Assembly: GCF_003426945.1 (NCBI RefSeq)
Contig: NZ_QURO01000004.1
Location: 372,001-436,000 of the forward strand
Source: Thermus sediminis
Lineage (GTDB): Bacteria > Deinococcota > Deinococci > Deinococcales > Thermaceae
Direction of reading: 5' to 3'
Length of the DNA stretch: 64,000 nucleotides
In this document: in pieces, positions 8,026 through 57,491 of the stretch
Layout of the letters: each line of letters begins with the position of its first letter
Position numbering within the stretch: the first letter of the stretch is position 1
The notes under the pieces: generated by a model
Databases searched by the model: none
Seen by the model: only the letters and a program-made list of their open reading frames with translations
What the model was told of the DNA's origin: nothing
Made by a program: the position numbers and the translations under genes

Positions 8026-8055
8026 TAATACCCTTTCTTGCTGTATCCTTCGTCC

Positions 8056-9098
8056 ATGACCGTAGCCGACCACCTGACCCTGAACGAGCTTTGGCGAAGG
8101 GTCAAGAAGGCCAAGGACCCTATAGACAAGCACCGCTTCCTGGCCGTCTACCATGCCAAACGGGGCCTCACCGCCAAGAAGATCGCCAAGATCACCCTCA
8201 ACACCCCCCGCTGGGTCCAGGAGACGGTGCGCCGCTACAACCAGGGCGGCCCTGCGGCCCTGGGGGACAGGCGGCACCAGAACCCGGGGCAGAAGCCCAA
8301 GCTCACCCCGGAGGAACGGGAGAGGGTGCTTGGAGCTCTACAGGGCCCCCCACCCGACGGAGGCTTGTGGACGGGGCCCAAGCTGAGGGACTGGGTGGAA
8401 AGGGATCTGGGAAAGAGGCTTTCCCTCTACCCCATCTACCGGCTCCTACACGAGATGGGGTTTGCCCTGCGGGTGCCCCGCCCCCGGCACGCCAAGGCGG
8501 ATGAGGCGGCGGGGGAGTTGTTCAAAAAAACCTCCTCGCCCAGGTCCAAGAGGCGAGGGCCCAGGGGAGGAGGGTGAGGCTTTTGGCCTATGATGAGCAC
8601 CGCTTGGGGCTGAGGCCGGTGTACCGGCGGGTATGGGCCCGGCGAGGGGATAGGCCCTTGGCGGTGGGGGCGCACCGGTACCGGTGGTTTTACGTGTGCA
8701 CCTTTGTGGAGCCGGAGACGGGGGAGAGCCTGAGCCTCCCCTTGGACGGGGTGGACACGGAGGTCATGGGCTGGGTTCTGAGGGAGCTCCGGGATTGGTT
8801 GGGAGAGGGGGAGGAGGGGTGGGTGGTCCTGGACCGGGCTGGGTGGCACGTGTCGGGGCGGGTGGAGGTGCCGGAGGGGGTGCGGCTGGTCTTCCTGCCC
8901 CCCTACAGTCCGGAGCTGCAACCTGTGGAGAGGGTGTGGCCCTTGGTGAACGAGGCGGTGGCCAACCGGTACTTCCGGGACCTTGAGGAGATGATGGAGG
9001 TGGTGGCGGAGCGATGCCGGGTTCTCGCGCAGGACCCAGAGACCCTCAGGCGGCACACCCTGTTCCACTGGTGCCCTGGGATGAAGGAATCAGCATAA
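8056..9098 (+). CDS. IS630 transposase, two frames joined by a -1 frameshift
   Basis: The first frame (ATG 8056 to 8577) holds the helix-turn-helix part (LTAKKIAKITLNTPRWVQET) and a winged-helix region. The second frame (to 9098) holds the catalytic core: YDEHRLGL with the first Asp, VVLDRAGWH with the second, and PPYSPELQPVERVWPLV with the Glu. The two join smoothly if the ribosome slips back one base on the A7 run at 8524-8530, giving FKKNLLAQVQEARAQGRRVR. IS630-family elements often use this device. The product would be about 347 residues, the normal family length, so the element may be active. Confidence 0.85.
8524..8530 (+). other. A7 slippery sequence for -1 frameshifting
   Basis: Seven A residues sit as TTC AAA AAA ACC in the first frame. 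After a -1 slip the next codons read AAC CTC CTC GCC, which continues the transposase. Thermus ribosomes and RNA polymerase are known to slip on A runs, as in dnaX of T. thermophilus. A stop in the first frame follows at 8577. Confidence 0.7.
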
Positions 9099-9121
9099 AG
9101 TGGTATTATTACACAAAAGTC

Positions 9122-12544: not shown

Positions 12545-13447
12545 CGCACCAAGAACGGTTCGTATCGGGGAAGTTCTCCCAAGAGGTGCTTGGCTAGGAT
12601 TCGCGCTTGGGCCAGGAGGATCTCCCGGTAGGCCAGACGTTTTCCCAGAATAGGGTGTCGTACCCGCTCGTTGAGCCTCTCTCCCCAAGCCCTCAAGAAC
12701 TTGGGCCAGGCATCCTTCCGCAGCCGGGGGAAACCTTCGCTTTCATCGAAGTCCTCAAAGGTCACCCGGCGGTTGTTGAGGAGGCTTAGGACCACCGAGT
12801 CGGCAAGGATGCTCCGGAACTCCTCCATCAGGTCCAGGGCTAGCGAGGGACGACCGTACCGCACCTCATGGAGGTAGCCCACGTAAGGGTCAAGCCCGGC
12901 TACGAGGAGGGCGCTTTCGCATTCCTTGGCAAGGAGAGCGTAAGCCAACGAAAGGAGGCTGTTGGCTGGGTCCCGGGGCGGCCGACGGCTCCGTTCCCCG
13001 AAGGCTAGACCTTCCGGCAGGAGCCCGGCAAAAGCCCGGAAGTAGAGGTCGGCGGCCCGGCCTTCCACGCCTCTTAGAGCCTCTTCGTCTGGGGCCCGCT
13101 CCGTTTCCTGGAGGGCTCCCTTCAGTCCTTCCCAGCCCTCAGCCCCGTTGCGCCTTAAGAAGACGAGGCCATTCTTGATCTTCCCTAAAACGAAGCGCCG
13201 AGCCAAGGTAAGCTTCCAAGCAGGGTCCAGGTGGGCCCGGAACTGGGCCACCCGGGCCGGGGCGTTTTTAGCGGGTGTGCGGGTCAAGCCTGCGTAATAA
13301 GTCCCGGTAGGGGAGAGGTAGTGAATCCCGATGCCCTCCAGGGCGCAGTGCTTGAGGAGGGCAGGGGTTACCACCGCGTTCCCCAGGATCACGATCTCTT
13401 CCACCGCGATAACAGGTTTTTGTAGAAGCACCTCGCGCCCGGCTCGG
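12541..13447 (-). pseudogene. cas1: CRISPR-associated integrase Cas1, N-terminally truncated by IS256
   Basis: The C-terminal catalytic domain is complete: LLSLAYALLAKECESALLVA with the first Glu, DPYVGYLHEVRYGRPSLALD with the His, and DLMEEFRSILADSVVLSLLN with the last acidic pair. The N-terminal domain starts only at GREVLLQKPVIAVEEIVILG; about 25-35 residues that normally precede it are missing. The frame runs open into the IS256 element at 13448. A start at the ATG at 13431 would give 296 residues, but inside a beta strand. Sequence on the far side of the IS does not encode the missing part. Probably non-functional, though partial function is not excluded. Confidence 0.88.
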
Positions 13448-14585
13448 TCAAGTAGCGATTTTTGTGGGTTTCTCTTCCGCGGCCCAAAGCGGGGCCATGT
13501 CCAGGTAACGCCTGAGCGCCCAGTCCTCCGTGGCTCTCAGCATCACCACCGTGGCCAGATTCCCTAGGCTCCCCTCGCTGGGGAAAACCCCAACCACCCT
13601 GGTCCGCCGCTTCACCTCCCGGAAAAGCCGCTCCAGCGCATTCGTGCCCTTGATGTGCTTCTGGTGGCCGCTGGGAAAGTCCAGGTGGATCAGAGCTTCC
13701 CCCAAACCCTGGGCAAACACCTCCACCCCTCGCCTGTACCGGTCCCGGTAGCGTTCAACAAACTCTCGGGCCAGAGATTCCGCCGTGCCCCGCCGCCGCG
13801 CCACAAACACCTCCTGGAGCTCCGCACCGCTGCCAGCTGGCCCCAGGAAGCTCGGCCCTCGCCGCCTGGCGGATGGAAGGGGGGTCGTCGGAAATGACCA
13901 GCCTCACCCCACGAAGCCCCCGCTCCACCAGACCCTTCCGGAGGTTCCTCCAGGCCTCCTTCCGCTCCCCGCCCGCCGGTTCCACCGCCAGCAGCAAAAG
14001 GTACGGGCTGCGCCCGTGACCTCGGTAGCCTTTCTCGTTCACCCCCACCGCCACCAGAAGGGCCAGGTCCACCACCCGCCCGCCCCGGTTCGCCTTGAAG
14101 TAGGCCGCGTCCAGGCAGAGGTAGGGGTAAGCCAGCCCCAAGGGCCGGCCCCGCCAGGCAGAGGGCGCCTCCTCCAGGCGCTGGGCTACCCTGGAGACCG
14201 CGTCCTTACCAATCCGCACTCGGGACAGACCTTCGGTGATGGCCGCCACCTTGCGGGTGGAGACCCCTTGCAGGTCCATCTCCAGGACGGCCTCTTCCAC
14301 CTCCCCGGTCATCCGCTTGTAGCGCTCCAACACCTCGGTCAGGAAAGTCCCCTCCCGGTCCCGGGGTACCCGGAGCTGCGCGATCTTGCCCGCCGGCGTG
14401 ATGAGGTCCCGGGTGTAGTGGCCGTTCCGCTCCCCGCGGCGGCTCGGGGTGCGCTCACGGTGACCCGCAGCCAGGTGCTCGGTCATCTCTTCTTCCAACA
14501 CCTGCTCGATGATGGCCTTGACCCCTTCCCGGATGCGCCGGCTGATCTCCTCCTTGGTCAACCTCTTGAACCCCTCTTGGTTCAT
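13448..14585 (-). pseudogene. IS256 transposase, internally deleted and frameshifted (copy 1)
   Basis: The first frame (start 14585) begins MNQEGFKRLTKEEISRRIRE and carries YLCLDAAYFKANRGGRVVD (first Asp) and VRLVISDDPPSIRQAAR (second Asp). It then breaks after GASWQRCG. The second frame resumes at VFVARRRGTAESLAREFVER and holds HIKGTNALERLFREVKRRTR with the catalytic Glu. About 20-25 residues that usually link WQRC to EVFVA are absent and the frame changes there. The same lesion is in the copy at 55454, so this defective version has itself moved. Confidence 0.82.
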
Positions 14586-14624
14586 TCAGCCCTCCATGCT
14601 TAACCCACAAAATAAGCGACACTA
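13448..14624 (-). mobile_element. IS256-family insertion sequence, copy 1 (1177 bp)
   Basis: The outer ends form imperfect inverted repeats whose inner parts share TTTTGTGGGTT. The second copy at 55415-56591 has the same length and near-identical sequence in the opposite orientation. No convincing target duplication is visible. It truncates cas1 on its left and borders the bioY control region on its right. Confidence 0.85.
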
Positions 14625-14774
14625 CCACAGCCCGGTCAGAAATCCCGAGGGGCCAAACCACCCGGGAGCATAGAGGGTCCTCGCCGGCCGGGGCGGTTAG
14701 GGTAGGCCTCCAGCTCTCCCCAGAACCCCGGGAACGGGTGTAGAGCCCCTCCCTAAAGACAGGAGGACTTGAAA

Positions 14775-20639: not shown

Positions 20640-20667
20640 TTGTTCTGAACACGCTCAGGGGTATAGT
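20640..20667 (+). promoter_or_regulatory. Promoter of the thiosulfate sulfurtransferase gene
   Basis: TTGTTC (20640-20645) and TATAGT (20662-20667) are 16 bp apart. The ATG follows 19 nt later behind the ribosome site GGAGG. Confidence 0.5.
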
Positions 20668-20686
20668 GGGGACCGGAGGTGGCAGC

Positions 20687-21547
20687 ATGGGTTACGCCCA
20701 TCCGGAAGTCTTAGTGAGCACGGCCTGGGTAGAGGAGCACCTGCAGGACCCCGCGGTGCGCATCCTGGAGGTGGACGAGGACATCCTCCTCTACGACACC
20801 GGCCACATCCCCGGAGCGCAAAAGATCGACTGGCAGCGGGACTTCTGGGACCCGGTGGTGCGGGACTTCGTGGACGAGGAGGGCTTCGCACGGCTTATGG
20901 AGCGGCTTGGCATCTCCAACGATACCACCGTGGTCCTCTATGGGGACAAGAACAACTGGTGGGCGGCCTACGCCTTCTGGTTCCTCAAGTACAACGGCCA
21001 CGGGGACGTGCGCCTCATGAACGGGGGAAGGCAGAAGTGGGTAGAGGAGGGCCGGCCCCTCACCACCGAGGTCCCCTCCTACCCTCCCGGCCGCTACCAG
21101 GTCCCCTACCGGGACGAGTCCATCCGCGCCTACCGGGACGAGGTCTTAAAGCAAATCCTCAAGGTCAAGGAAGGGAAGGGGGCCCTGGTGGACGTGCGGA
21201 GCCCCGAGGAGTACCGGGGCGAGCTCACCCACATGCCGAACTACCCCCAGGAGGGAGCCCTTAGGGCGGGGCATATCCCCGGGGCCAGGAATATCCCCTG
21301 GGCCAAGGCGGTGAACCCCGACGGCACCTTCAAAAGCGCCGAGGAGCTCAGGACCCTCTACGAGCCCCTGGGTGTGACCCCGGACAAGGACATCGTGGTC
21401 TACTGCCGCATCGCCGAGCGCTCCAGCCACTCCTGGTTCGTCCTCAAGTACCTCCTGGGCTACCCCCACGTGAAGAACTACGATGGCTCCTGGACGGAGT
21501 GGGGGAACCTGGTGGGGGTGCCCATCGCCAAGGGGGAGGAGGGCTAG
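20687..21547 (+). CDS. Thiosulfate sulfurtransferase (two-domain rhodanese)
   Basis: This 286-residue protein has an inactive N-terminal rhodanese domain ([20 protein letters not shown]) and a C-terminal catalytic domain with the active Cys in [20 protein letters not shown]. Such enzymes move sulfane sulfur from thiosulfate to thiol acceptors or cyanide. The ATG is chosen for its GGAGG ribosome site. The TAG stop is the first three bases of the 104 bp repeat element at 21545. Confidence 0.9.
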
Positions 21548-21648
21548 GTACCCCACCGGGGCTTTCGCCGCGGCGGGGATCCCAGGAGAAACCCGCTCAG
21601 GGGCCAAGGGCGGTGCGCCCCACCCCGAAGTTTCCATGGGGGCACCTA
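21545..21648. repeat. Stop-anchored repeat element, copy C (104 bp, diverged)
   Basis: The left end TAGGTACCC and the right end GGGCACCTA are imperfect inverted repeats. The first 35 bases match copy A closely, including the core CTTTCGCCGCGGCGGGG; the rest has diverged. It fills the whole gap between two convergent genes: its first three bases are the rhodanese stop and its last three, on the other strand, are the sdaA stop. Confidence 0.6.
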
Positions 21649-26924: not shown

Positions 26925-28271
26925 GTGGAGAAGAGCCTTTCCCCCATCCTCGAGGCCCTGGAAGGGGGCGACACCCTGGCCCTCAAGCGCCTTTTGGAGG
27001 AAACCCATCCCCAGGACCTCCTCCTGCTTTGGGATGACCTCAACGGGGAGCACCGCTACGTCCTCCTCACCCTCCTCTCCAAAGAAAAGGCGGCGGAGGT
27101 CTTCGCCAACCTCGCCCCCGAGGAGCAGGCGGAGTACCTGAAGACCCTCCCTCCCTGGCGGGTGCAGGAACTCCTCACCGAGCTCTCCCTGGACGACCTG
27201 GCCGATGCCCTGCAGGCGGTGGAGGAGGAGGACGAGGCCCTGGCCAAAAGGCTCAAGGAGGCCCTGGACCCAAAGACCCGGGCCGAGGTGGAGGAGCTCA
27301 CCCAGTACGAGGAGGACGAGGCCGGTGGCCTCATGACCCCGGAGTACGTGGCCGTGCGGGCCACCATGACCGTGGACGAGGTGCTCCGCTTCCTGCGCCG
27401 GGCCGCCCCCGACGCCGAGACCATCTACTACCTCTACGTGGTGGACGAGGAGGGCCGCCTCCAAGGGGTACTCTCCCTACGGGACCTGATCGTGGCCGAC
27501 CCCAGGACCAAGGTGGCGGAGATCATGAACCCCAAGGTGGTCCACGTGCGCACGGACACGGACCAGGAGGAGGTGGCCCGCCTCATGGCCGACTACGACT
27601 TCACCGTGCTCCCTGTGGTGGACGAGGAGGGGTACCTCGTGGGCATCGTCACCGTGGACGACGTCCTGGACGTCCTGGAGGAGGAGGCCACCGAGGACAT
27701 CCATAGGCTCGCCGCCGTGGACGTGCCCGACCTGGTCTACAGCCAGGCCTCCCCAGTGGGGCTTTGGCTCGCCCGGGTGCGCTGGCTCATCATCCTGATC
27801 CTCACGGGAATGGTGACGAGTTCCATCCTCCAGGGGTTTGAGAGCGTCTTGGAAGCGGTGACCGCCCTGGCCTTCTACGTGCCCGTCCTCATAGGCACCG
27901 GGGGGAATACGGGCAACCAGTCCGCCACCCTCATCATCCGGGCCCTGGCTACCCGGGACCTGGACCTCAGGGACTGGCGGCGGGTCCTCCTCAAGGAAAC
28001 CGTGGTGGGAAGCCTCTTAGGCCTCACCCTGGCCTCCGTCCTCCTCGTCAAGGTGGGGCTGGACGGCTACGGCCCCCTCATCCCCGTGGTGGGCCTGTCC
28101 CTCTTCCTCCTGGTCCTCTTCGCCAACCTGGTGGGCTCCATGCTCCCCATGGCCCTGAGGCGGCTTGGGGTAGACCCGGCCCTGGTCTCCAACCCCTTCA
28201 TCGCCACCCTCTCCGATGTGATCGGCCTCCTCATCTACCTGAGCGTGGCCCGCCTGATCCTGGGCCTCTAA
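26925..28271 (+). CDS. mgtE: Magnesium transporter MgtE
   Basis: The 448-residue product closely follows T. thermophilus MgtE. It has a cytosolic N-domain (HPQDLLLLWDDLNGEHRYVL), two CBS domains (GLMTPEYVAVRATMTVDEVL; AEIMNPKVVHVRTDTDQEEV) and five membrane helices with the pore motif GTGGNTGNQSATLI. In the family, Mg2+ bound between the CBS and N-domains closes the channel. The GTG start is supported by homology. The TAA stop is the first three bases of repeat copy A. Confidence 0.97.
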   Translation: MEKSLSPILEALEGGDTLALKRLLEETHPQDLLLLWDDLNGEHRYVLLTLLSKEKAAEVFANLAPEEQAEYLKTLPPWRVQELLTELSLDDLADALQAVEEEDEALAKRLKEALDPKTRAEVEELTQYEEDEAGGLMTPEYVAVRATMTVDEVLRFLRRAAPDAETIYYLYVVDEEGRLQGVLSLRDLIVADPRTKVAEIMNPKVVHVRTDTDQEEVARLMADYDFTVLPVVDEEGYLVGIVTVDDVLDVLEEEATEDIHRLAAVDVPDLVYSQASPVGLWLARVRWLIILILTGMVTSSILQGFESVLEAVTALAFYVPVLIGTGGNTGNQSATLIIRALATRDLDLRDWRRVLLKETVVGSLLGLTLASVLLVKVGLDGYGPLIPVVGLSLFLLVLFANLVGSMLPMALRRLGVDPALVSNPFIATLSDVIGLLIYLSVARLILGL

Positions 28272-28371
28272 GTACCCCACCGCGGCTTTCGCCGCGGCGG
28301 GGGCCCCAAAAGGCCTTGCCAGATTTCCCGCCTGGATATCCTATGTTGCGAAACCAACGTACGGGCACTTA
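28269..28371. repeat. Stop-anchored repeat element, copy A (103 bp)
   Basis: Ends TAAGTACCC and GGGCACTTA are inverted repeats differing at one base. The body matches copy B (inverted, 38852-38951) over its whole length. A strong hairpin CCGCGGC-TTTC-GCCGCGG lies near the left end. The first three bases are the mgtE stop; the next gene starts 3 bp after the right end. Confidence 0.75.
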
Positions 28372-30327: not shown

Positions 30328-32900
30328 TTACCCCGCGTTCCTCAGGCCCGCCGCCACCCCCAGGAGGGAGAGGAGAAGGGCCTTCCTTAAGCCCTCGTCC
30401 TCCCGTCCGCCAGGGGAGCGGTACCGCCTCAAGAGCTCCACCTGGACGGTGTTGATGGGGTCCACGTAGGGGTTCCTGAGGGCGGTCTGCCTCTCCAGGG
30501 TCTTCTGGTTGTGGAGGAGGGGGGCCTGGAAGATGGCCTCCAGGAGCCTTCGGGTGCGGAGGTACTCCTCGGCGATCCAGTGGAAGAGGGGGTGCAGGCT
30601 TTCCGGCACCAGGCGCAGGTAGAGCCTCGCCACCCCCAGGTCCGCCTTGGCCAGGGCCATGGCGGCGCTCTCCAAGGTGGTGGCGAAGAAGGGCCAGTCC
30701 CGGTACATCTCCCGCAAAAGGTCCAAGGGAAGGTCTTCCAAGGCGGAAAGGCCGTACCACCCGGGGAGGAGAAGCCGCACCTGGGTCCAGGCCATGACCC
30801 AGGGGATGGCCCTTAGGTCCCGGATGTCCCTGACCCGGCCGTGGCGGTAGACGGGGCGGCTGGCGATGGGAAGCTCCCCGATCTCCCGGATGGGGGTGAG
30901 GGCCTCAAAGAAGGGGAAGAAGCCCTCCTCGGCAAGGAGGGCCCGGTAGCGGGCCACGCTCTCCTCCCCCGCCCCCCTCAGGGCCTCCCACCAGAGGGGC
31001 TTGGGCTCCACCCCGTCCCCCAAGGCGGCCTGGGCGAAGTGGAAGAGGAGCTGCTCCAGGTGGCGCACCGCCAGCTCGGGGTGGCTGTAGCGGTCCGCCA
31101 GGGCCTCCCCCTGCTCCGTGAGGCGGAGGCGGCGGCCCACGCTCCTCGGGGGTAGGCTGGCGATGGCCCGGCCCGCGGGGCCGCCCCCCGGGCGGTGGAG
31201 GTGCCCCGGCCGTGGAAGAAGTGGACGGGAAGCCCCTTCTCCTCCCCCACCCGGCCCAGGGCTTCCTGGGCCTCATAGAGGGCCAGGTTGGCCATGAGGA
31301 AGCCCGCATCCTTGTTGGAGTCGGAGTAGCCGATCATGACCTCCACCCCGCCCCGGCCCCGGGCGTGGGCCAGGAAGACGGGGTTCTCCAGGAGGCGGCG
31401 GAGGACCAGAGGGGCCCGCCTTAGGTCCTCCAGGGTCTCAAAGAGGGGGACCACGTCAAAGGGAAGGGGCTTCCCGGGGCGGTAAAGCCCCACCTCCCGG
31501 GCCAGGAGGAAGACGGAGAGGAGATCGGCGGGATGGTGGGTCATGGAGACCACCTGGGCCCCCCTGTCCCGCCAGGCCCGGAAGGCCTCCAGGGCCACCC
31601 TTAGGGCCTCCTCCTTGGGCTCCTCCCCCACGGGAAGGAGGGGCCTCGCTGTCCTCAGCTCCTCGGTGAGGAGGGCCTCCTTGGCCTCGGGGGAGAGGGC
31701 GAGGAAGTCCGGGTGGACCCCGCCCACCCTTAGGAGCTCGGCCGCCCCCAGGAGGAGCTTCCCCGACTCCTCCCTGAGGTCCAAGGGGGCGAGCTCCAGG
31801 CCGAAGGCGGTGAGGCGGGCCTCGAGGGGCCTCAGGAGGCTTTCTCCCACCTCCCCTAGCCCCACCGCCCGAAGCCCCCCTTCCGCCATCTTGAGGGCGG
31901 AAAGGAGCTCCTCCGTAGTGGCCTCGCCCTGGGAAAGCTTGCGGTAGAGCCGGGCGAAGAAGCGGCGGTAGGGCTCCCCGGGAAAGCGCTCTATTCCCTC
32001 GCCCCCCTGGCGCACCTCCCAGGGCGCGGGCACCCTGGCCTCGGAGAGGGAGAGGTCCCGCACCAGGGCCTCTAGCTCCTCCAAGAACTTCCCCTTGGCC
32101 ACCTCACGGGCGTACCGGGCGGCGAAAAGGGTGACCTCGGGGGTCACGAAGGGGTTTCCATCTCGGTCCCCGCCGATCCAGCTGCGGAAGCGCACGGGGC
32201 TCTTGAGGCGGGGCCTTTTGCCATAGACCCGTTCCAAGGCCAGTTCAAGCCCCTCCACCACCTTGGGGATGGCCCGCCAGAGGGTGGTGGGCAGGTAGTA
32301 AAGCCCCCCCTTGATCTCGTCCTCCACGCTGGGCCGGGCCTTCCTCACCTCCTCGGTGGTGTAAAGGAGGGCCACCCGGGCGAGGAGGCGGGCCCTGTCC
32401 CCCTCCTCCAGCTCCCGCTCCAGGGCCTCGAGGTGGTGGCGCAGGGTGCGGCGGCGGGTCTCCGTGGGGTGGGCGGTGAAGGTGAGGAGGAGCTCCAGGC
32501 GGTTCAGGTGGGCCTCCGCCTCCTCCAGGGAAAGCCCCCGGGCCCTCATGGCCTGGGCCAAGGCCAGGAAGCCCTCGGGCCTGGGGTTCTCGGGGGTTTC
32601 TTCCTGGGCCCTCGCCCGGTTCACCCGCACCCGGTGGCGCTCCTCCGCCAGGTTCACCAGGTGGAAGTAGTGGGTGAAGGCCCGGACCAAAGCCTCGGCC
32701 TCGAGGGCCGAAAGCCCCTCCACCCGGGAAAGCAACGCCTCCCCGGCGGCCTCGTCCCCCTGGCGGCGGGCCTTGGCGAGAAGGCGCACCTCCTCCACCA
32801 GGGCGAAGAACCTCTCCCCGGAAACCCTCTTGATGGCCTCCCCTAGGAGACGGCCCAGAAGGTCCACCTCCGCCTTCAAAAGCTCAAAGAGGTCGGTCAT
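30328..32900 (-). pseudogene. ppc: Phosphoenolpyruvate carboxylase, single-base frameshift
   Basis: The first frame (32900 to about 31180) holds [40 protein letters not shown] and [20 protein letters not shown], then [13 protein letters not shown]. There the frame breaks at a run of six G (minus strand, near 31178-31190). Adding one G restores [20 protein letters not shown] and the second frame continues [20 protein letters not shown] to the normal C-terminus at 30328. All else is full length (about 857 residues), so this is a base error, fresh mutation or slippage site. PEPC fixes bicarbonate on PEP to supply oxaloacetate. Confidence 0.88.
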
Positions 32901-37053: not shown

Positions 37054-38309
37054 TTAGGGGGAGCGAGGGGGCTTCCTGGACGCCCCCCCTTTAGGGCCCT
37101 CAGGAGCCCCTCTGCCTTGTGGAGGGTCTCCCGGTACTCCGCCTCAGGGGAGGAGGCGATGACCACCCCGGCCCCCGCGGAGAAGTGGAGGACCTCCCCC
37201 ACCTGGTAGAAGGAGCGGATGAGGATGTTGAAGTCCGCCCCCCGGCCCGAAACGTACCCCAGGCTCCCCGTGTAGGCCCCCCGGGGCACGGGCTCCAGGT
37301 CCCGGATGGCCTCCATCACCGTCCCCTTGGGGGCCCCGGTGATGGTCCCCCCGGGGAAGAGGGCGCGGAAGACCTCCCCCAAGGAAGCCCGGGTGTACCC
37401 CTCCACCTCCGAGACCAGGTGCATCACGTGGGCGTAGCGCTCCACGGTGAAGAGCTCCCGCACCCGCACCGACCCGGGGAGGGCCACCTTGGCCAGGTCG
37501 TTCCGCAGGAGGTCCACCAGCATGGCGTGCTCCGCCCGCTCCTTGGGGGAGGCGAGGAGCTCCCTCTCCAGGAGGAGGTCCTCGGCCCCGTCCCGCCCCC
37601 GGGGCCGGGTGCCCGCGATGGGCCGGGTGGACACCTTGGCCCCCACCTTCTGGAAAAGCCTTTCCGGGCTCCCCGAGATCACCGCCCACCCCTCCCCCTC
37701 CAGAAGCCCCATGAAGGGGGAGGGGTTATGGGCCCGGAGGCGGGCGTAGAGGGCCAGAGGGTCCAAAGGGCCTTGGGCTCGGAAGCGGTGGGAGAGGTTC
37801 ACCTGGTAGACCACCCCGGCCCGGATCCGCTCCTGCACCTCCCTCACCCCCTCCAGGAAGCGGGCCTCGGGGTAGTCGCTCAGAAGGCCCATGGGGGGAA
37901 AGGGGGGCGGGAGGTAGGGGGTGGGCCTGAGAGGGAAGGAGGGCCTTTCCACAAGCCGCCCCTCCAGGAAGGCGAAGCCCTCGGGGTAGTAGAAGAAGGC
38001 GGCCTCGGGGAGGCCGGGGATAGGGGGATGGGTGGGAAGCCTCAGGTGGCGGGCGAACTCGTAGGCGAAAAAGCCCACCCAGGCGGGGAAGTGGCCTGGT
38101 CCTAGTCCCCTTTCCAGGTAGCGGAAGAGGTCCAGGGCCTCCCCCACCCGGCGCCCGTCCAGGTAGAGCCGCCTCTCCAGGACCTCGAGGCGGTGCGCCG
38201 GCCTCAGGCCCAGGAGGGAGAGCCGGGAAAAGGGGGTCCTTGGCCCCAAGGACTCCAGAAGGGCAGGGCGAAGCCCCAGGAGGCGGGCGGCGTGGTAGAG
38301 GCCCAGCAC
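37031..38309 (-). CDS. pabB: Aminodeoxychorismate synthase PabB, frameshifted at its fusion to PabA
   Basis: From GTG 38309 the protein follows chorismate-binding enzymes: VYQVNLSHRFRAQGPLDPLA, STRPIAGTRPRGRDGAEDLL, LFPGGTITGAPKGTVMEAIR and YTGSLGYVSGRGADFNILIR. After the linker GSPLAPPKPAAFWAP the frame meets a run of six C (37031-37036 on the plus strand as G). From there PabA continues in another frame, while the PabB frame runs on without a stop into non-coding sense. Adding one C gives WAPPPPRRLKARVLFLENRD, a smooth fusion. TrpE is less likely given the pabC neighbour. Confidence 0.8.
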
Positions 38310-38316
38310 GGCCAGA

Positions 38317-38324
38317 AGTATACT
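38317..38324. promoter_or_regulatory. Palindromic -10 box AGTATACT shared by divergent genes
   Basis: AGTATACT reads TATACT on both strands. On the plus strand it ends 8 nt before the uma2 ATG; on the minus strand 7 nt before the pabB GTG. Both spacings fit leaderless transcripts, so one box may serve both genes. No good -35 is seen for either. Confidence 0.5.
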
Positions 38325-38332
38325 CAGGGGAG

Positions 38333-38854
38333 ATGGTCAAGCACCGCTTCACGGTGGAGGCCTACCACAAGGCCTACGAGGCGGGGGCCCTCCCCGAACG
38401 GGTGGAGCTCCTGGAGGGGGAGGTGTACGCCGTGTCGCCCATGGGGAAAAAGCACCGGCTTTACGTAATGCACCTGGACAAGGTCTTCCAAGAGGCTTTC
38501 GGGGATGAGGCCGTGGTCATGGTCCAGTGCCCCCTAGGCTTGTCTACCGACTCGGAGCCCACACCGGACCTGGCCCTCCTCCGCCCCCCCCTAGAGGCTT
38601 ACCGGGAGCGGGACCCGGGGCCTGGGGATACCCTTCTCCTGGTGGAGATCTCCGACACCACCCTGGTCCAGGACCGCACCCTGAAGCTCCCCCTCTACCA
38701 GAAGGCGGGCATCCCCGAGGTCTGGCTGGTGAACCTGGTGGAGGGGGTCCTCGAGGTCTACGCCTTCCCCCACTACGCCATGGAGCGCCACCCCAAGGGG
38801 GAGGCCGTGGCCCCCAGGGCCTTCCCCACCCGGCCCGTGGCCTGGTGGGTCTAA
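38333..38854 (+). CDS. Uma2-family (DUF820) putative endonuclease
   Basis: This 173-residue protein begins MVKHRFTVEAYHKAYEAGAL. It has the PD-(D/E)xK-like pattern of Uma2 proteins: ELLEGEVYAVSPMGKKHRLY, EPTPDLALLRPP with the Asp, LLLVEISDTTLVQDRTLKLP with Glu and Lys, and YQKAGIPEVWLVNLVEGVLE. The family is widespread in cyanobacteria and Thermus and its role is unclear; a link to mobile elements has been suggested. Its TAA stop is the first codon of repeat copy B. Confidence 0.85.
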   Translation: MVKHRFTVEAYHKAYEAGALPERVELLEGEVYAVSPMGKKHRLYVMHLDKVFQEAFGDEAVVMVQCPLGLSTDSEPTPDLALLRPPLEAYRERDPGPGDTLLLVEISDTTLVQDRTLKLPLYQKAGIPEVWLVNLVEGVLEVYAFPHYAMERHPKGEAVAPRAFPTRPVAWWV

Positions 38855-38951
38855 GTGCCCGTACGTTGGTTTCGCAACAAGGGATGTCCAGGTGGTCTGG
38901 CAAGGCCTTTTTGGGGCTCCCGCCGCGGCTTTCGCCGCGGCGGGGTGCTTA
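38852..38951. repeat. Stop-anchored repeat element, copy B (100 bp)
   Basis: The ends are TAAGTGCCC and GGGTGCTTA. The sequence is the inverse of copy A with roughly 85 percent identity by eye. It fills exactly the gap between convergent uma2 and metH: its first three bases are the uma2 stop and its last three, on the minus strand, are the metH stop. The hairpin CCGCGGC-TTTC-GCCGCGG is intact. Confidence 0.78.
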
Positions 38952-41900
38952 GTCCACGCTGAAGTAGCGTGCCTCGGGATGGTGGGCCACGAGGGCGCTG
39001 GTGGCGTGTTCGGGCACGAGCTGGTAGCTCTCCGTGAGGCCCACCCCGATCCGGGAAAAGCCCATGAGGCGGTCCAGCTTGGCCTGGTCGGCGAGGTCAG
39101 GGCAGGCGGGGTAGCCGAAGGAGTAGCGGGCCCCCTGGTAGCCCCCCTGGAAGAGCTTGCGGATGTCGGTGGCGTCCCGGTGGGCGATCCCCCACATCTG
39201 CCGCATCCTCTTGTGCCAGTACTCCGCCAAGGCCTCGGTCATCTCCACGCTGAAGCCGTGGACGAAGAGGTAGTCCTGGTAGGCCCCGCTCTCAAAGAGG
39301 ACCTTGGCCCTCAGGGAGGGCTCCTCGCCCATGGTGACGAGCTGGACCCCGAGGACGTCCCGCGCCCCTGCCCGGAAGGCGGCCTCCGGCATCCAGGCCT
39401 CCTCGTCCCCCAGAGGAGGGGCGAAGCGGGGACGGAAGTAGTCCACGAGGGATAGCCCCCCGCCCTTTTGCCGGGGAAAGCAGAAGCGCTCCAGGACCTC
39501 TCCCGTTTCGGGGCTGAACACCAAAAGCTCCTCCCCCTCCCGGGCCACGGGGAAGAAGCCGTAAAGGACCCGAGGGATGAGCCATCCCTCCTCCCTAGCC
39601 TCCTTGAGAAGGCGCCGGAAGACGGGCTCCGCCTCCCTTTCCACTAGGGCCTGCCACGCCTCCCGGGAAAGCCCCTTGCGGCTGTAGCCCCACTGCCCCC
39701 GGAAGAGGGCGAGCTTGTTCACGTAGCGGGCGATGGTGGGGAGGTCCAAGCCCTCCTCCACCCGAACCCCGAAAAAGGGGGGGCGGGGGATGGCGGGGGC
39801 CTCCCCCACGGGCTTGGCCCTGGCTTCTACCTGGGGGAGGGGCCTTGCAGGCTTTTTGGCCTCTTTCCGAGTGAGTTCCAGAGGGGCGTGCCCTGTGAGC
39901 TCTTCCATGAGCCTCAGGCCCTCAAAGGCGTCCTCGGCGTAGTAGACGTTGGGGTAGATGGCCTTTAGCTCCTCCACGTAAGCGCGGGTGAGGGCAGCCC
40001 CCCCCAGGATCACGGGGAGGGTGTAGCCCCTTTCCGCCATGTACTCCAGGTTTTCCTTCATGACCAGGGTGCTCTTCACCAGGAGGCCGGACATCCCCAG
40101 GGCATCAGGTTTGTGCTCCTCCACCGCCCTCAGCATCTCCTCAATGGGGACCTTGATGCCCAGGTTCACCACCTGGTAGCCGTTGTTGGTGAGGATGATA
40201 TCCACTAGGTTCTTGCCGATGTCGTGGACGTCGCCCTTCACCGTGGCCAGGACCATCTTCCCCTTGCCCGCCCCCCGCCTCTCCATGTGGGGCTCCAGGA
40301 AGGCCACGGCCCGCTTCATGACCTCGGCTGCCTGGAGGACGAAGGGAAGCTGCATCTTCCCCGCCCCGAAGAGCTCCCCCACCTCCTTCATCCCGTCAAG
40401 AAGGGGCCCGTTGATGAGGTCCAGGGGCCTGTGCCCCGCCTTCAGGGCCTCCTCCAGGTCCCCCTCGAGGCCCCCCTTCCTCCCCTCCACGATGCGCCGC
40501 CTGAGCCTTTCCAAGAGGGGGAGGGCTTGAAAGGCATCCTCCTTGGTTCCCAGCTCCTCCTTGTGGGCCTCAAAGTAGGCCATGAAGGCGAAGAGGGGGT
40601 CATACCCCTCCCGCCTCCGGTCGTGGATGAGGTCCAAGGCCAGGGCGTAGGCCTCCTCGGGGATCTGGCCCATGGGGAGGATCTTCCCCGCGTCCACGAT
40701 GGCGGCGGTGAGGCCCCGCTTCCTGGCCTCGTCCAGAAAGACCGAGTTCAGGACCCGCCTGGCCCGGGGCTTGAGGCCGAAGGAGACGTTGGAAACCCCC
40801 AGGATGAACCCCACCCCGGGAAGCCTCTCCCTTAGCTCCTCTAGGGCGAGAAGGGTCTCCCGGGCCAAGGGGCGGCTCTCCTCGTCCCCCTGGGTGATGG
40901 GGAAGGTGAGGAGGTCAAAGAGGAGGTCCTCGGGGCGGAAGCCGTGGTGAAGGGTGAGGCGCTCGTACATCCTCAGGGCCACCCGGACCTTCTCCTCCCG
41001 GGTCTTGGCCATGCCCTTTTCGTCTATGGCCAGGGCCACCAGGGCCGCCCCATGGGCCTTGGCCAGGGAGGCCACGCGGTCAAACCGCTCCAGGCCCTCC
41101 TCCAGGTTCACGGAGTTGAGGAGGACCCGGCCCGGGAGGTGCTTGAGGGCGAGCTCCATGGCCTCGGGGCTGGTGGAGTCCACCATGAAGGGCACGGTGA
41201 CCGCCGTGGCCAGGTGTGGAAGAAGCCACTCCAGGTCCTCTAGCTCGTTCCGGCCCGTCCAGGCCACGCTTAGGTCCAGGGCATGGGCCCCCTCCTCCAC
41301 CTGCTCCCGGGCCAGGGCCAGGATGCCCTCGAGGTCCCTCGCAAAGAGCATCTCCCGAAAGCGCCTGCTCCCCGTGGCGTTCAGCCTCTCCCCCACCAAG
41401 AGCAGGCTCGCCTCCTGCCTCAGGGGGACCGCCTGGTACAAGGAGGCCACCTGCGGGGGAAAGACCCGGGGGCGAGGAGGGGCGGGAAGCCCCCGCACCG
41501 CCTCCGCCACCTTGCGGATGTGCTCCGGCCCCGTGCCGCAACACCCCCCTACGGCGTTCACCCCGTACTCGGCCACGAACTTGCGGTGCCAGCGGGCGAG
41601 CTCCTCCGGGGTGAGGTCATAGACCACCCTCCCCCCCTCGTTCCGGGGCAGGCCCGCGTTGGGAAGGCAGGAGACGAAGCGGGTACTGTGGTGGGCGAAG
41701 TAGCGGATCTTGCTATCCATGAGGTCGGGGCCGGTGGCACAGTTCATCCCCACCACGTCTATGGGGAGGCTCTCCAGGGCGGCCAAAGCCGCCTGCTCGT
41801 CCGTGCCCAGGAGCATGGTGCCCGTGGCCTCCATGGTCACCTGGACCTGGAGGGGCACCTCCCGCCCCACCTCGGCCATGGCCTGCCGGGCCGCAAGGGC

Positions 41901-42506
41901 AGCGCACCGCACCTGGAGGATGTCCTGGGCGGTCTCCAGGAGGATGAGGTCCACCCCGCCCCTAAGAAGCCCCCGCACCGCCTCCCTGTAGGCCCCGTAG
42001 AGCTCCTCCCAGGAGATCTGGCCCAGGGAGATGAGCCTGGTCCCCGGGCCCAGGGCCCCGGCCACGAAGGCCCCAAAGGCATCGGCGGCCTCCCGGGCGA
42101 TCCTGGCCCCCAGGTAGGCGAGCTCCTCCGCCCTCTCCCCAAGGCCATACTCCGCCAGGACGTGGCGGAGGGCCCCGAAGGTGTTGGTCTCGATGACCTC
42201 CGCCCCCACCTCCAGGTAGGCCAGGTGGATCTCCTGGATCACCCCGGGCCGGGTGGCGTTGAGGACCTCCGGGCACCCGTAGTAGGCCTCCCCCCCGAAA
42301 TCCTCGGGGGCTAGGTCCCTCTTCTGGAGCTCCGTGCCCATGGCCCCGTCAAAGACCAGGGGTCTTTGCAGTAGGGCCTTCAGGTAGGGGAACTTCCTGG
42401 CCCGGGCCTCCTTGTTGTAGCCCAGACGCACCAGGGGAGCCTCCCCCCACCCCACCCCCCCCAGGTGGTGGCGGCAGCCGGGGCTACAGGTGTGGACCTC
42501 CACCAT
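38949..42506 (-). CDS. metH: Cobalamin-dependent methionine synthase MetH
   Basis: This 1185-residue protein has all four modules. The homocysteine domain reads VFDGAMGTELQKRDLAPEDF with zinc Cys in GMNCATGPD and VGGCCGTGPEH. A pterin-binding domain starts near residue 370 (GERLNATGSRRFREML). The cobalamin domain has KGDVHDIGKNLVDII, with the His that binds cobalt. The activation domain has RYSFGYPACPDLADQAKLDR. The spacer to divergent pncB is only about 42 bp, so no cobalamin riboswitch fits before it. Confidence 0.97.
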   Translation of the reverse strand: MVEVHTCSPGCRHHLGGVGWGEAPLVRLGYNKEARARKFPYLKALLQRPLVFDGAMGTELQKRDLAPEDFGGEAYYGCPEVLNATRPGVIQEIHLAYLEVGAEVIETNTFGALRHVLAEYGLGERAEELAYLGARIAREAADAFGAFVAGALGPGTRLISLGQISWEELYGAYREAVRGLLRGGVDLILLETAQDILQVRCAALAARQAMAEVGREVPLQVQVTMEATGTMLLGTDEQAALAALESLPIDVVGMNCATGPDLMDSKIRYFAHHSTRFVSCLPNAGLPRNEGGRVVYDLTPEELARWHRKFVAEYGVNAVGGCCGTGPEHIRKVAEAVRGLPAPPRPRVFPPQVASLYQAVPLRQEASLLLVGERLNATGSRRFREMLFARDLEGILALAREQVEEGAHALDLSVAWTGRNELEDLEWLLPHLATAVTVPFMVDSTSPEAMELALKHLPGRVLLNSVNLEEGLERFDRVASLAKAHGAALVALAIDEKGMAKTREEKVRVALRMYERLTLHHGFRPEDLLFDLLTFPITQGDEESRPLARETLLALEELRERLPGVGFILGVSNVSFGLKPRARRVLNSVFLDEARKRGLTAAIVDAGKILPMGQIPEEAYALALDLIHDRRREGYDPLFAFMAYFEAHKEELGTKEDAFQALPLLERLRRRIVEGRKGGLEGDLEEALKAGHRPLDLINGPLLDGMKEVGELFGAGKMQLPFVLQAAEVMKRAVAFLEPHMERRGAGKGKMVLATVKGDVHDIGKNLVDIILTNNGYQVVNLGIKVPIEEMLRAVEEHKPDALGMSGLLVKSTLVMKENLEYMAERGYTLPVILGGAALTRAYVEELKAIYPNVYYAEDAFEGLRLMEELTGHAPLELTRKEAKKPARPLPQVEARAKPVGEAPAIPRPPFFGVRVEEGLDLPTIARYVNKLALFRGQWGYSRKGLSREAWQALVEREAEPVFRRLLKEAREEGWLIPRVLYGFFPVAREGEELLVFSPETGEVLERFCFPRQKGGGLSLVDYFRPRFAPPLGDEEAWMPEAAFRAGARDVLGVQLVTMGEEPSLRAKVLFESGAYQDYLFVHGFSVEMTEALAEYWHKRMRQMWGIAHRDATDIRKLFQGGYQGARYSFGYPACPDLADQAKLDRLMGFSRIGVGLTESYQLVPEHATSALVAHHPEARYFSVD

Positions 42507-55384: not shown

Positions 55385-55412
55385 CCCATCGTGGCGGGTC
55401 CGGAGGGGTTTG
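55385..55412. repeat. attL-like copy of the tRNA-Arg 3' end
   Basis: This 28 bp stretch matches the tRNA-Arg 3' end at 57608-57635 at 26 of 28 positions, starting CCCATCGTGGCGGG. It ends 2 bp before the IS256 copy. It marks the far end of an island inserted into the tRNA gene. Confidence 0.7.
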
Positions 55413-55414
55413 GG

Positions 55415-56591
55415 TAGTGTCACTTATTTTGTGGGTTAAGCATGGAGGGCTGAATGAACCAAGAGGGGTTCAAGAGGTTGACCAAGGAGGAGATCAGCCG
55501 GCGCATCCGGGAAGGGGTCAAGGCCATCATCGAGCAGGTGTTGGAAGAAGAGATGACCGAGCACCTGGCTGCGGGTTACCGTGAGCGCACCCCGAGCCGC
55601 CGCGGGGAGCGGAACGGCCACTACACCCGGGACCTCATCACGCCGGCAGGCAAGATCGCGCAGCTCCGGGTACCCCGGGACCGGGAGGGGACTTTCCTGA
55701 CCGAGGTGTTGGAGCGCTACAAGCGGATGACCGGGGAGGTGGAAGAGGCCGTCCTGGAGATGGACCTGCAAGGGGTCTCCACCCGCAAGGTGGCGGCCAT
55801 CACCGAAGGTCTGTCCCGAGTGCGGATTGCTAAGGACGCGGTCTCCAGGGTAGCCCAGCGCCTGGAGGAGGCGCCCTCTGCCTGGCGGGGCCGGCCCTTG
55901 GAGCTGGCTTACCCCTACCTCTACCTGGACGCGGCCTACTTCAAGGTGAACCGGGGCGGGCGGGTGGTGGACCTGGCCCTGCTGGTGGCGGTGGGGGTGA
56001 ACGAGAAAGGCTACCGAGGTCACGGGCGCAGCCCGTACCTTTTGCTGCTGGCGGTGGAACCGGCGGGCGGGGAGCGGAAGGAGGCCTGGAGGAACCTCCG
56101 GAAGGGTCTGGTGGAGCGGGGGCTTCGTGGGGTGAGGCTGGTCATTTCCGACGACCCCCCTTCCATCCGCCAGGCGGCGAGGGCCGAGCTTCCTGGGGCC
56201 AGCTGGCAGCGGTGCGGAGCTCCAGGAGGTGTTTGTGGCGCGGCGGCGGGGCACGGCGGAATCTCTGGCCCGAGAGTTTGTTGAACGCTACCGGGACCGG
56301 TACAGGCGAGGGGTGGAGGTGTTTGCCCAGGGTTTGGGGGAAGCTCTGATCCACCTGGACTTTCCCAGCGGCCACCAGAAGCACATCAAGGGCACGAATG
56401 CGCTGGAGCGGCTTTTCCGGGAGGTGAAGCGGCGGACCAGGGCGGTTGGGGTTTTCCCCAGCGAGGGGAGCCTAGGGAATCTGGCCACGGTGGTGATGCT
56501 GAGAGCCACGGAGGACTGGGCGCTCAGGCGTTACCTGGACATGGCCCCGCTTTGGGCCGCGGAAGAGAAACCCACAAAAATCGCTACTTGA
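55415..56591 (+). mobile_element. IS256-family insertion sequence, copy 2 (1177 bp)
   Basis: Same length and ends as copy 1 at 13448-14624, opposite orientation, with only a few base differences. The left end abuts the attL-like sequence and the right end cuts the integrase frame. No target duplication is visible. Confidence 0.85.
55454..56591 (+). pseudogene. IS256 transposase, internally deleted and frameshifted (copy 2)
   Basis: The first frame reads to GASWQRCG at about 56217 and the second resumes at VFVARRRGTAESLAREFVER from 56229, exactly the lesion of copy 1. Differences from copy 1 are few, for example AAGYRER for AAGHRER, LELAYPYLYLDAAYFKVNRG for LGLAYPYLCLDAAYFKANRG, and RTRAVG for RTRVVG. 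Both catalytic Asp and the Glu remain, but not in one frame. Confidence 0.82.
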
Positions 56592-57491
56592 CTCCCCAAG
56601 ACCCTGGCCAACTACCGCCGGGAGTTGGGCTACCTCCTCCCCTACCTGGGCCCTAAGCGGCTACAAGACATCAAGCCCATGGACATCCGCCAAGCCTTAG
56701 ACCGCATGGCCGCCCAGGGGTTGGGTACTTGGGCCAGGAGCAAGGCCCTCACCCACCTCCGGGCCATCTTCAAGGAGGCCCTGGCCCTGGAGCTGGTGCA
56801 CCGGGACCCCACCGCCGCCATCCGGCTGGAGGGGAGCACGAGGGCTAGGGCTGGGAGGACCCTGGAACCTGGGGAGGCCACCCTTCTCCTGCGGGCGTTT
56901 GACTCCTGGCCTACCTGGGAGGTGGGCATGGCCCTTCGGCTGTGTCTAGCTATGGAGCTCAGGGTTGGGGAAGCCCTGGGGCTCAGGTGGGAGGACGTGG
57001 ACCTGGTGGAGGGCACCCTCATCGTGCGCCGGGCATGGACCGCCCTAGGGGGCAAGGGCATCCTCACCGAGCCCAAGACCCCGCACTCTCGGAGGACCCT
57101 GCCCCTACCCAAGGCCACCCTGGAACGGCTAAAGGCCAGGTGGGAGGAGCTGGTGGCCAAGGGGGCGCGCCCCAGGGACCTGAGGGAGGCATGGCTATTC
57201 CCTAGCCCCAAGGACCCTGGTCAGCCCCTCAACCCCCACACCCTGGCCCACGCCCTGAGGAAGATGGTCGCCCGGCTAGGCATCCCACCCCTCCGGGTCC
57301 ATGACCTCCGGCACTCCTACGGGTCCCTGCTCCTGGCCAACGGGGCCCCCCTAGAGCTGGTGAGTGAGCGGCTGGGCCACGCTAACCCCAGCATCACCCT
57401 CAACGTCTACCGCCACCTCCTGGCCCGCGAGAGGGCGGCGTGGGTGGTGGACCCCGAAGACCTCATCCACCGCCCCACGGCCCAGGCGTAG
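56592..57491 (+). pseudogene. Tyrosine recombinase (phage/island integrase), N-terminally truncated
   Basis: The C-terminal catalytic domain is complete: LRVGEALGLRWEDVDLVEGT with the first Arg, PKTPHSRRTLPLPKATLERL, HDLRHSYGSLLLANGAPLEL with His-x-x-Arg, and LGHANPSITLNVYRHLLARE with the His and Tyr nucleophile. The core-binding domain begins abruptly at TLANYRRELGYLLPYLG right after the IS256 end. The N-terminal arm-binding part is missing. It reads toward the tRNA-Arg, as expected for a tRNA-targeting island. Confidence 0.85.

Follow-up and report, generated by a model that had tools for sequence, protein, structure and literature searches.

Insertion sequences of the IS630 family target the dinucleotide TA and duplicate it on insertion. 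Preferential transposition of IS630 to a TA within CTAG is mentioned, by reference to Tenzen and Ohtsubo 1991, in a passage of PMC2170065. In Thermus, the family is represented by ISTth6, an element with 2-bp repeats included in a survey of the Thermus mobilome, the text of which mentions MITEs only within the name of a search program (PMC6352166). RUP of pneumococcus is a non-coding element of 107 bp with 9-bp terminal repeats starting with TA, a TA duplication, and ends like those of the resident IS630-Spn1 (PMC2229807). Correia/NEMIS (~107-155 bp) and ERIC (127 bp) are intergenic, MITE-like units with TA termini and stable RNA folding (PMC2229807). BOX, also of pneumococcus, comprises small repeats that give neighboring genes their stop codon (36 CDS), and SPRITE is a small pneumococcal hairpin repeat enriched near gene 3′ ends (PMC3049150).

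On the basis of sequence comparisons, an element of 100 bp from Thermus sediminis is very probably a non-autonomous, IS630/Tc1-mariner-type MITE that relies on IS630 transposases acting in trans and for which stop codons would serve as safe sites. No earlier description of this repeat or of any Thermus MITE was found in a search of the openly accessible literature, ISfinder excluded.

The element between uma2 and metH

The window is the whole 64,000-nucleotide stretch of T. sediminis DNA that was analyzed. It harbors two complete copies of the element (A and B) and a decayed one.

38240..38854, plus strand: host gene 1 of copy B, Uma2 family (Pfam Uma2, 6e-25); its 3′ end lies within copy B
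38852..38951, plus strand: copy B, complete element, 100 bp, in the reference orientation (IS630-like end left, hairpin right)
38852..38860, plus strand: left terminal repeat TAAGTGCCC, which contains one copy of the duplicated target TA and, as TAA, the uma2 stop
38852..38880, plus strand: ~29 bp resembling IS630-family insertion sequence ends, from the end comparison
38919..38944, no strand assigned: GC-rich hairpin with an 11-bp stem and a TTTC loop; throughout the family the pairing is conserved, with compensatory changes
38943..38951, minus strand: right terminal repeat TAAGCACCC; its TAA is the metH stop
38949..42506, minus strand: host gene 2 of copy B, metH (B12-dependent methionine synthase); its 3′ end lies within copy B
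28269..28371, minus strand: copy A, complete element, 103 bp, inverted relative to B; its right end gives the mgtE stop TAA (28269-28271)
26925..28271, plus strand: mgtE, host gene of copy A, which ends in the copy
21545..21591, minus strand: third copy, decayed and reduced to the hairpin end; the rhodanese gene 20666-21547 has its stop in the outer TAG of this copy

Copy B, TAAGTGCCC...GGGTGCTTA, occupies all of the convergent gap between uma2 and metH, from stop to stop, such that its first TAA is the uma2 stop and its last TTA is the metH stop on the minus strand. The terminal repeats are imperfect, with 8 of 9 bases pairing between TAAGTGCCC and TAAGCACCC, while the stem of the hairpin, CCCGCCGCGGC-TTTC-GCCGCGGCGGG, is perfect over 11 bp. 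The initial annotation had described a stop-to-stop element with terminal inverted repeats, a hairpin with a TTTC loop, and a body matching copy A in inverted orientation, and each of these features is present. The loop is exempt from the inversion; it reads TTTC on the plus strand in both copies and is thus flipped relative to the body, and both loop orientations (TTTC and GAAA) are found throughout the family. RNA folding z values for the two strands of copy B are −4.2 and −5.1, and an Rfam scan returned chance-level matches only.

Elsewhere in the window, two inverted copies of an IS256-family element (13447-14633 and 55406-56592; 1187 bp, 99% identical) are present. A phosphoenolpyruvate carboxylase-like gene (30328-32900) is split over two frames (30978-32900 and 30328-31140), in what appears to be a frameshift or a sequencing error.

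Distribution and mobility of the family

The initial annotation had proposed searching Thermus genomes with the 100-bp sequence, and copies proved to be common. The T. sediminis genome itself carries ~15-20 (best non-self match 3e-31), a count that is approximate because one region is repeated at the two contig ends of the assembly; with so many matches, the likeness of A and B is not due to chance. The family is present in 19 of 27 Thermus genomes, with at least 40 places in several of them and 40-60 copies in some. In Thermaceae outside Thermus, no clear full copy was found, and a single partial match occurs in one other genus. Members are 100-104 bp long, have no coding capacity, and are dispersed at ~15-60 copies per genome, as is characteristic of MITEs. 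Sub-families are species specific.

Copies are also carried by plasmids of T. thermophilus and T. aquaticus and by the Thermus phages phiMa and phiLo. In phiMa, two convergent genes finish at the two ends of the copy according to the depositors' annotation, like those at copy B, and in plasmids TF19 and SNM7-6 the final three bases of the element likewise hold the end of a gene annotated by the depositors. One copy (L215:17300-17402) is chimeric, with its left half from one sub-family and its hairpin from another, which suggests recombination between sub-families. Separately, a 1.8-kb segment that includes one copy is nearly identical (98.7%) in four Thermus species (loci L037-L040; genomes G017, G018, G013, and G004), suggesting recent horizontal transfer.

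Empty sites were sought by joining the flanks of copies from the T. sediminis genome (G000). Four exact empty sites were found in related species, each with one TA in place of the two that border the filled site. Thermus genome G005 is empty at the sites of copy A, C4:2026071, and C4:1075722, and genome G026 is empty at the site of copy B, where it reads GTT-TAG-TCC. At the copy B site of G005 (L089), a different hairpin repeat occupies the same uma2 stop codon. In T. thermophilus, a copy found in six TF19-type plasmid records is missing from pTMY at the exact TA, and HB27 pTT27 likewise does not have it, with small differences adjoining the site. In G026, identical copies are found at different sites, and back-to-back copies have one TA in common. 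The family thus combines the terminal inverted repeats and target-site duplication of a MITE with insertion into a duplicated TA, as in IS630/Tc1-mariner elements. The suggestion in the initial annotation of a small mobile, MITE-like unit is strongly supported by the dispersed copies, the exact single-TA empty sites, the IS630-like ends, the presence or absence of copies among strains, and the phage copy.

Relation to IS630 insertion sequences

IS630-family elements (NF033545, PF13358) with ends TAAGTGCC and a TA flank are found in several Thermus genomes. An IS relict of T. arciformis (G006, assigned by a 100% match of its transposase to the named record) ends TAAGTGCCCGCGCATAGACTTTGCAACA, and Meiothermus hypogaeus carries close relatives. 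The left end of the MITE, TAAGTGCCCGCACTTTGGTTTCGCAACA, is similar to IS630 ends over ~29 bp, well past the terminal repeat. The similarity was assessed with the terminal repeat left out and with window positions as the null, which replaced a null of whole TAAG sites contaminated by IS copies. Over inner positions 10-29, the T. arciformis and Meiothermus IS ends outscore all window positions (0 of 126,794 as high), and a third IS end gives p = 2.4e-5. The right end has only the terminal ~9 bp in common with IS ends. The MITE therefore shares its ends with autonomous IS over ~29 bp on the left and only ~9 bp on the right. In G026, an IS630 and a MITE adjoin with a shared TA.

A complete IS630 that matches the MITE at both ends was not found, either within the same genome or elsewhere in the set; Meiothermus hypogaeus has broken copies and T. 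arciformis a 5′-truncated one, and these come nearest. In G005, which carries 40-60 copies of the MITE, no DDE_3 transposase was matched, so movement in this genome must be past. The one IS630 of the T. sediminis genome lies in the window (8026-9108, with ORFs 8038-8577 and 8574-9098) and is a different member of the family, flanked by TA; with ends that read TAATACC, it was rejected as the parent. IS5-type (DDE_Tnp_1) parents were likewise set aside, as in no retrieved locus is the gene bounded on both sides by TAAG..CCC ends.

Two origins other than an IS630-type MITE were considered. Copies A and B lie 10 kb apart in inverted orientation, as they might if they were one segmental duplication or a gene-conversion pair rather than a mobile element, yet their flanks are unrelated, the flanking genes are not duplicated, the empty sites are precise, and tens of copies exist in other species, which leaves this reading a negligible probability. 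The strong hairpin, the intergenic placement, and the flipped loops would also suit a single-strand palindromic repeat of the REP/BIME or IS200/IS605 type, mobilized by a Y1 transposase, and the phiLo copy adjoins an IS605 OrfB gene. However, the element has true terminal inverted repeats and an exact TA duplication, both absent from Y1 elements, and its ends match IS630, making such an origin very improbable. An IS630-type MITE remains the preferred reading.

Other repeats occur alongside the family. A second small repeat, with a hairpin CCCCATGCTGGC-4-GCCAGCATGGGG and one end TAATACCACC (L017, L018, and L019), occupies ~25 places in the T. sediminis genome and is the repeat seen at the uma2 stop of G005; certain copies of the first family have it inserted within them. 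The IS630 of the window is a possible driver of this second repeat. A ~0.9-kb repeat bounded by inverted TTTACRACAGCCTC, probably an IS, has ends that directly abut copies of the element (L160, L163, L173, L184, L201, and L202), as if it and the MITE share the same TA sites.

Stop codons, the hairpin, and comparison with known systems

Placement was counted for 75 full copies from three genomes, with genes in unannotated genomes called approximately by a simple codon model. The target tetranucleotide is CTAG in 35 of 75 copies, CTAA in 20, and TTAG in 9 (64/75 together), and it conforms to YTAR in 66/75. C precedes the site in 58/72 and G or A follows in 60/65, so that the element exhibits the CTAG-type preference reported for IS630. 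Stop codons harbor 39 of the 75 copies (52%), nine of them in the stops of two convergent genes; another 22 are intergenic, 12 are in called genes (some perhaps false calls), and 2 are near gene ends. Of background YTAR sites, 69% fall in coding sequence, 10% in stop codons, and 20% between genes. When sites are matched by tetranucleotide and coding sites are left out, 36 stop-codon copies are observed versus 19.6 expected (p = 5e-6). Convergent gene pairs flank 24 of 64 copies versus 91 of 546 gene pairs at large. The stop is supplied by the left end in 14 copies, by the right in 16, and by both in 9; with the two ends used equally often, no direction is preferred.

Copies are therefore strongly non-random relative to genes, and the view of the initial annotation that the element settles at gene ends is upheld. 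Its further claim, that the element donates stop codons, has to be corrected. For stop-codon copies of G005, the orthologous empty site in G000 still reads TAG or TAA in 11 of 23 cases; therefore, the stop predates the insertion and is not donated, but it is regenerated as TAA and in this sense replaced.

The preferred mechanism begins with an IS630-family transposase that would act in trans and bind the ends, recognizing TAAG-T/C-A/G-CCC and, at the left end, ~20 inner bases. The transposase would excise the element and reinsert it at a TA with TA duplication, preferring CTAG, CTAA, or TTAG. In a GC-rich, compact genome, such sites would lie in genes, in intergenic DNA, and in the stop codons TAG and TAA, and in-gene insertions would mostly be purged. 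We infer the transposase, its action in trans, and selection as the filter. Because both ends read TAAG, an interrupted TAG or TAA becomes an in-frame TAA, and where a CTAG or TTAG is common to two convergent genes, the same end sequence rebuilds both stops. Stop codons would thus be safe sites in which copies pile up, since insertion there restores TAA. The silence of the insertion follows directly from the end sequence, with no additional function required.

The hairpin is intact at all eight stem pairs in 56 of 65 copies. Among 30 diverse copies, four pairs show compensatory changes in 29 cells, a level that 0 of 500 shuffles reached, and pairing is lost when the stem partners are slid against each other. 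The hairpin is therefore maintained, either for transposition or as RNA. A terminator scan found none at the hairpin; its sole result was a weak stem of 5 pairs that precedes TTTTT on one of the strands.

Two further readings concern why copies collect at gene ends. Insertion itself could be aimed at stop codons or 3′ ends, guided by transcription termination complexes, by DNA structure, or by a longer target motif, instead of being filtered by selection; the stop-codon share above that of equivalent non-coding YTAR sites and the occurrence of stop-codon copies among the young ones of G026 fit this. However, every stop-codon site is also a TA, usually within YTAR, and an additional motif is thus unnecessary; selection also acts against insertion into intergenic DNA close to promoters and thereby reduces the intergenic share; and the choice of TA by IS630 is already known. 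Aimed insertion is accordingly judged quite unlikely. Somewhat less so, although still doubtful, is a domesticated bidirectional terminator or mRNA 3′-end stabilizer, spread by its usefulness at gene ends, with the hairpin as its working part. The GC-rich hairpin of 11-12 bp, its covarying pairs and retention in most copies, and the excess of copies in stop codons and between convergent genes are consistent with such a role. In contrast, a U-tract is lacking after the hairpin in both directions, the ends serve as stop without a favored direction, about half of the copies lie away from gene ends, transposition could be the reason why the hairpin is retained, and repair or conversion also makes palindromes covary. 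The two-way terminator of the initial annotation, with no U-tract either way and its ends used evenly, is not supported by the consensus and is best regarded as possible but unproven. A further picture can be offered tentatively, in which the MITE, with ends that make stop-codon insertion silent on both strands, has its main harbor in stop codons and later provides the 3′ ends of many Thermus genes with a conserved RNA hairpin.

For Thermus, a MITE family probably driven by IS630 is thus described, and it clearly illustrates how a mobile element can be steered harmlessly into stop codons by its choice of target (TA/CTAG), by GC-rich coding DNA, and by its TAAG ends. Annotators should be aware that the sequence of the element forms many Thermus gene ends. 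The natural pairs of filled and empty sites are suited to testing the effect of a 3′-end hairpin at 70 °C.

Among the known systems, ISTth6 shares with the Thermus MITE its host genus, the IS630 family, and, by its published description, 2-bp duplications; it differs in being an autonomous IS of 1.0-1.4 kb. Correia/NEMIS and ERIC reside in other hosts, and similarity to IS630 ends is not described for them in PMC2229807. SPRITE has a long T-tract like a terminator, whereas the Thermus element has none. BOX is likewise a small repeat that supplies stop codons; however, it is modular, is tied to ISSpn2 rather than IS630, and has different ends. RUP is AT-rich, contains stops in all frames, is not reported at stop codons, and belongs to another host, whereas the Thermus element is GC-rich, has a covarying hairpin, and is found in stop codons in about half of its copies. 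Both are nonetheless small non-coding elements with TA-starting ends of ~9 bp, a TA duplication, and IS630-like ends, and the two are analogous in kind.
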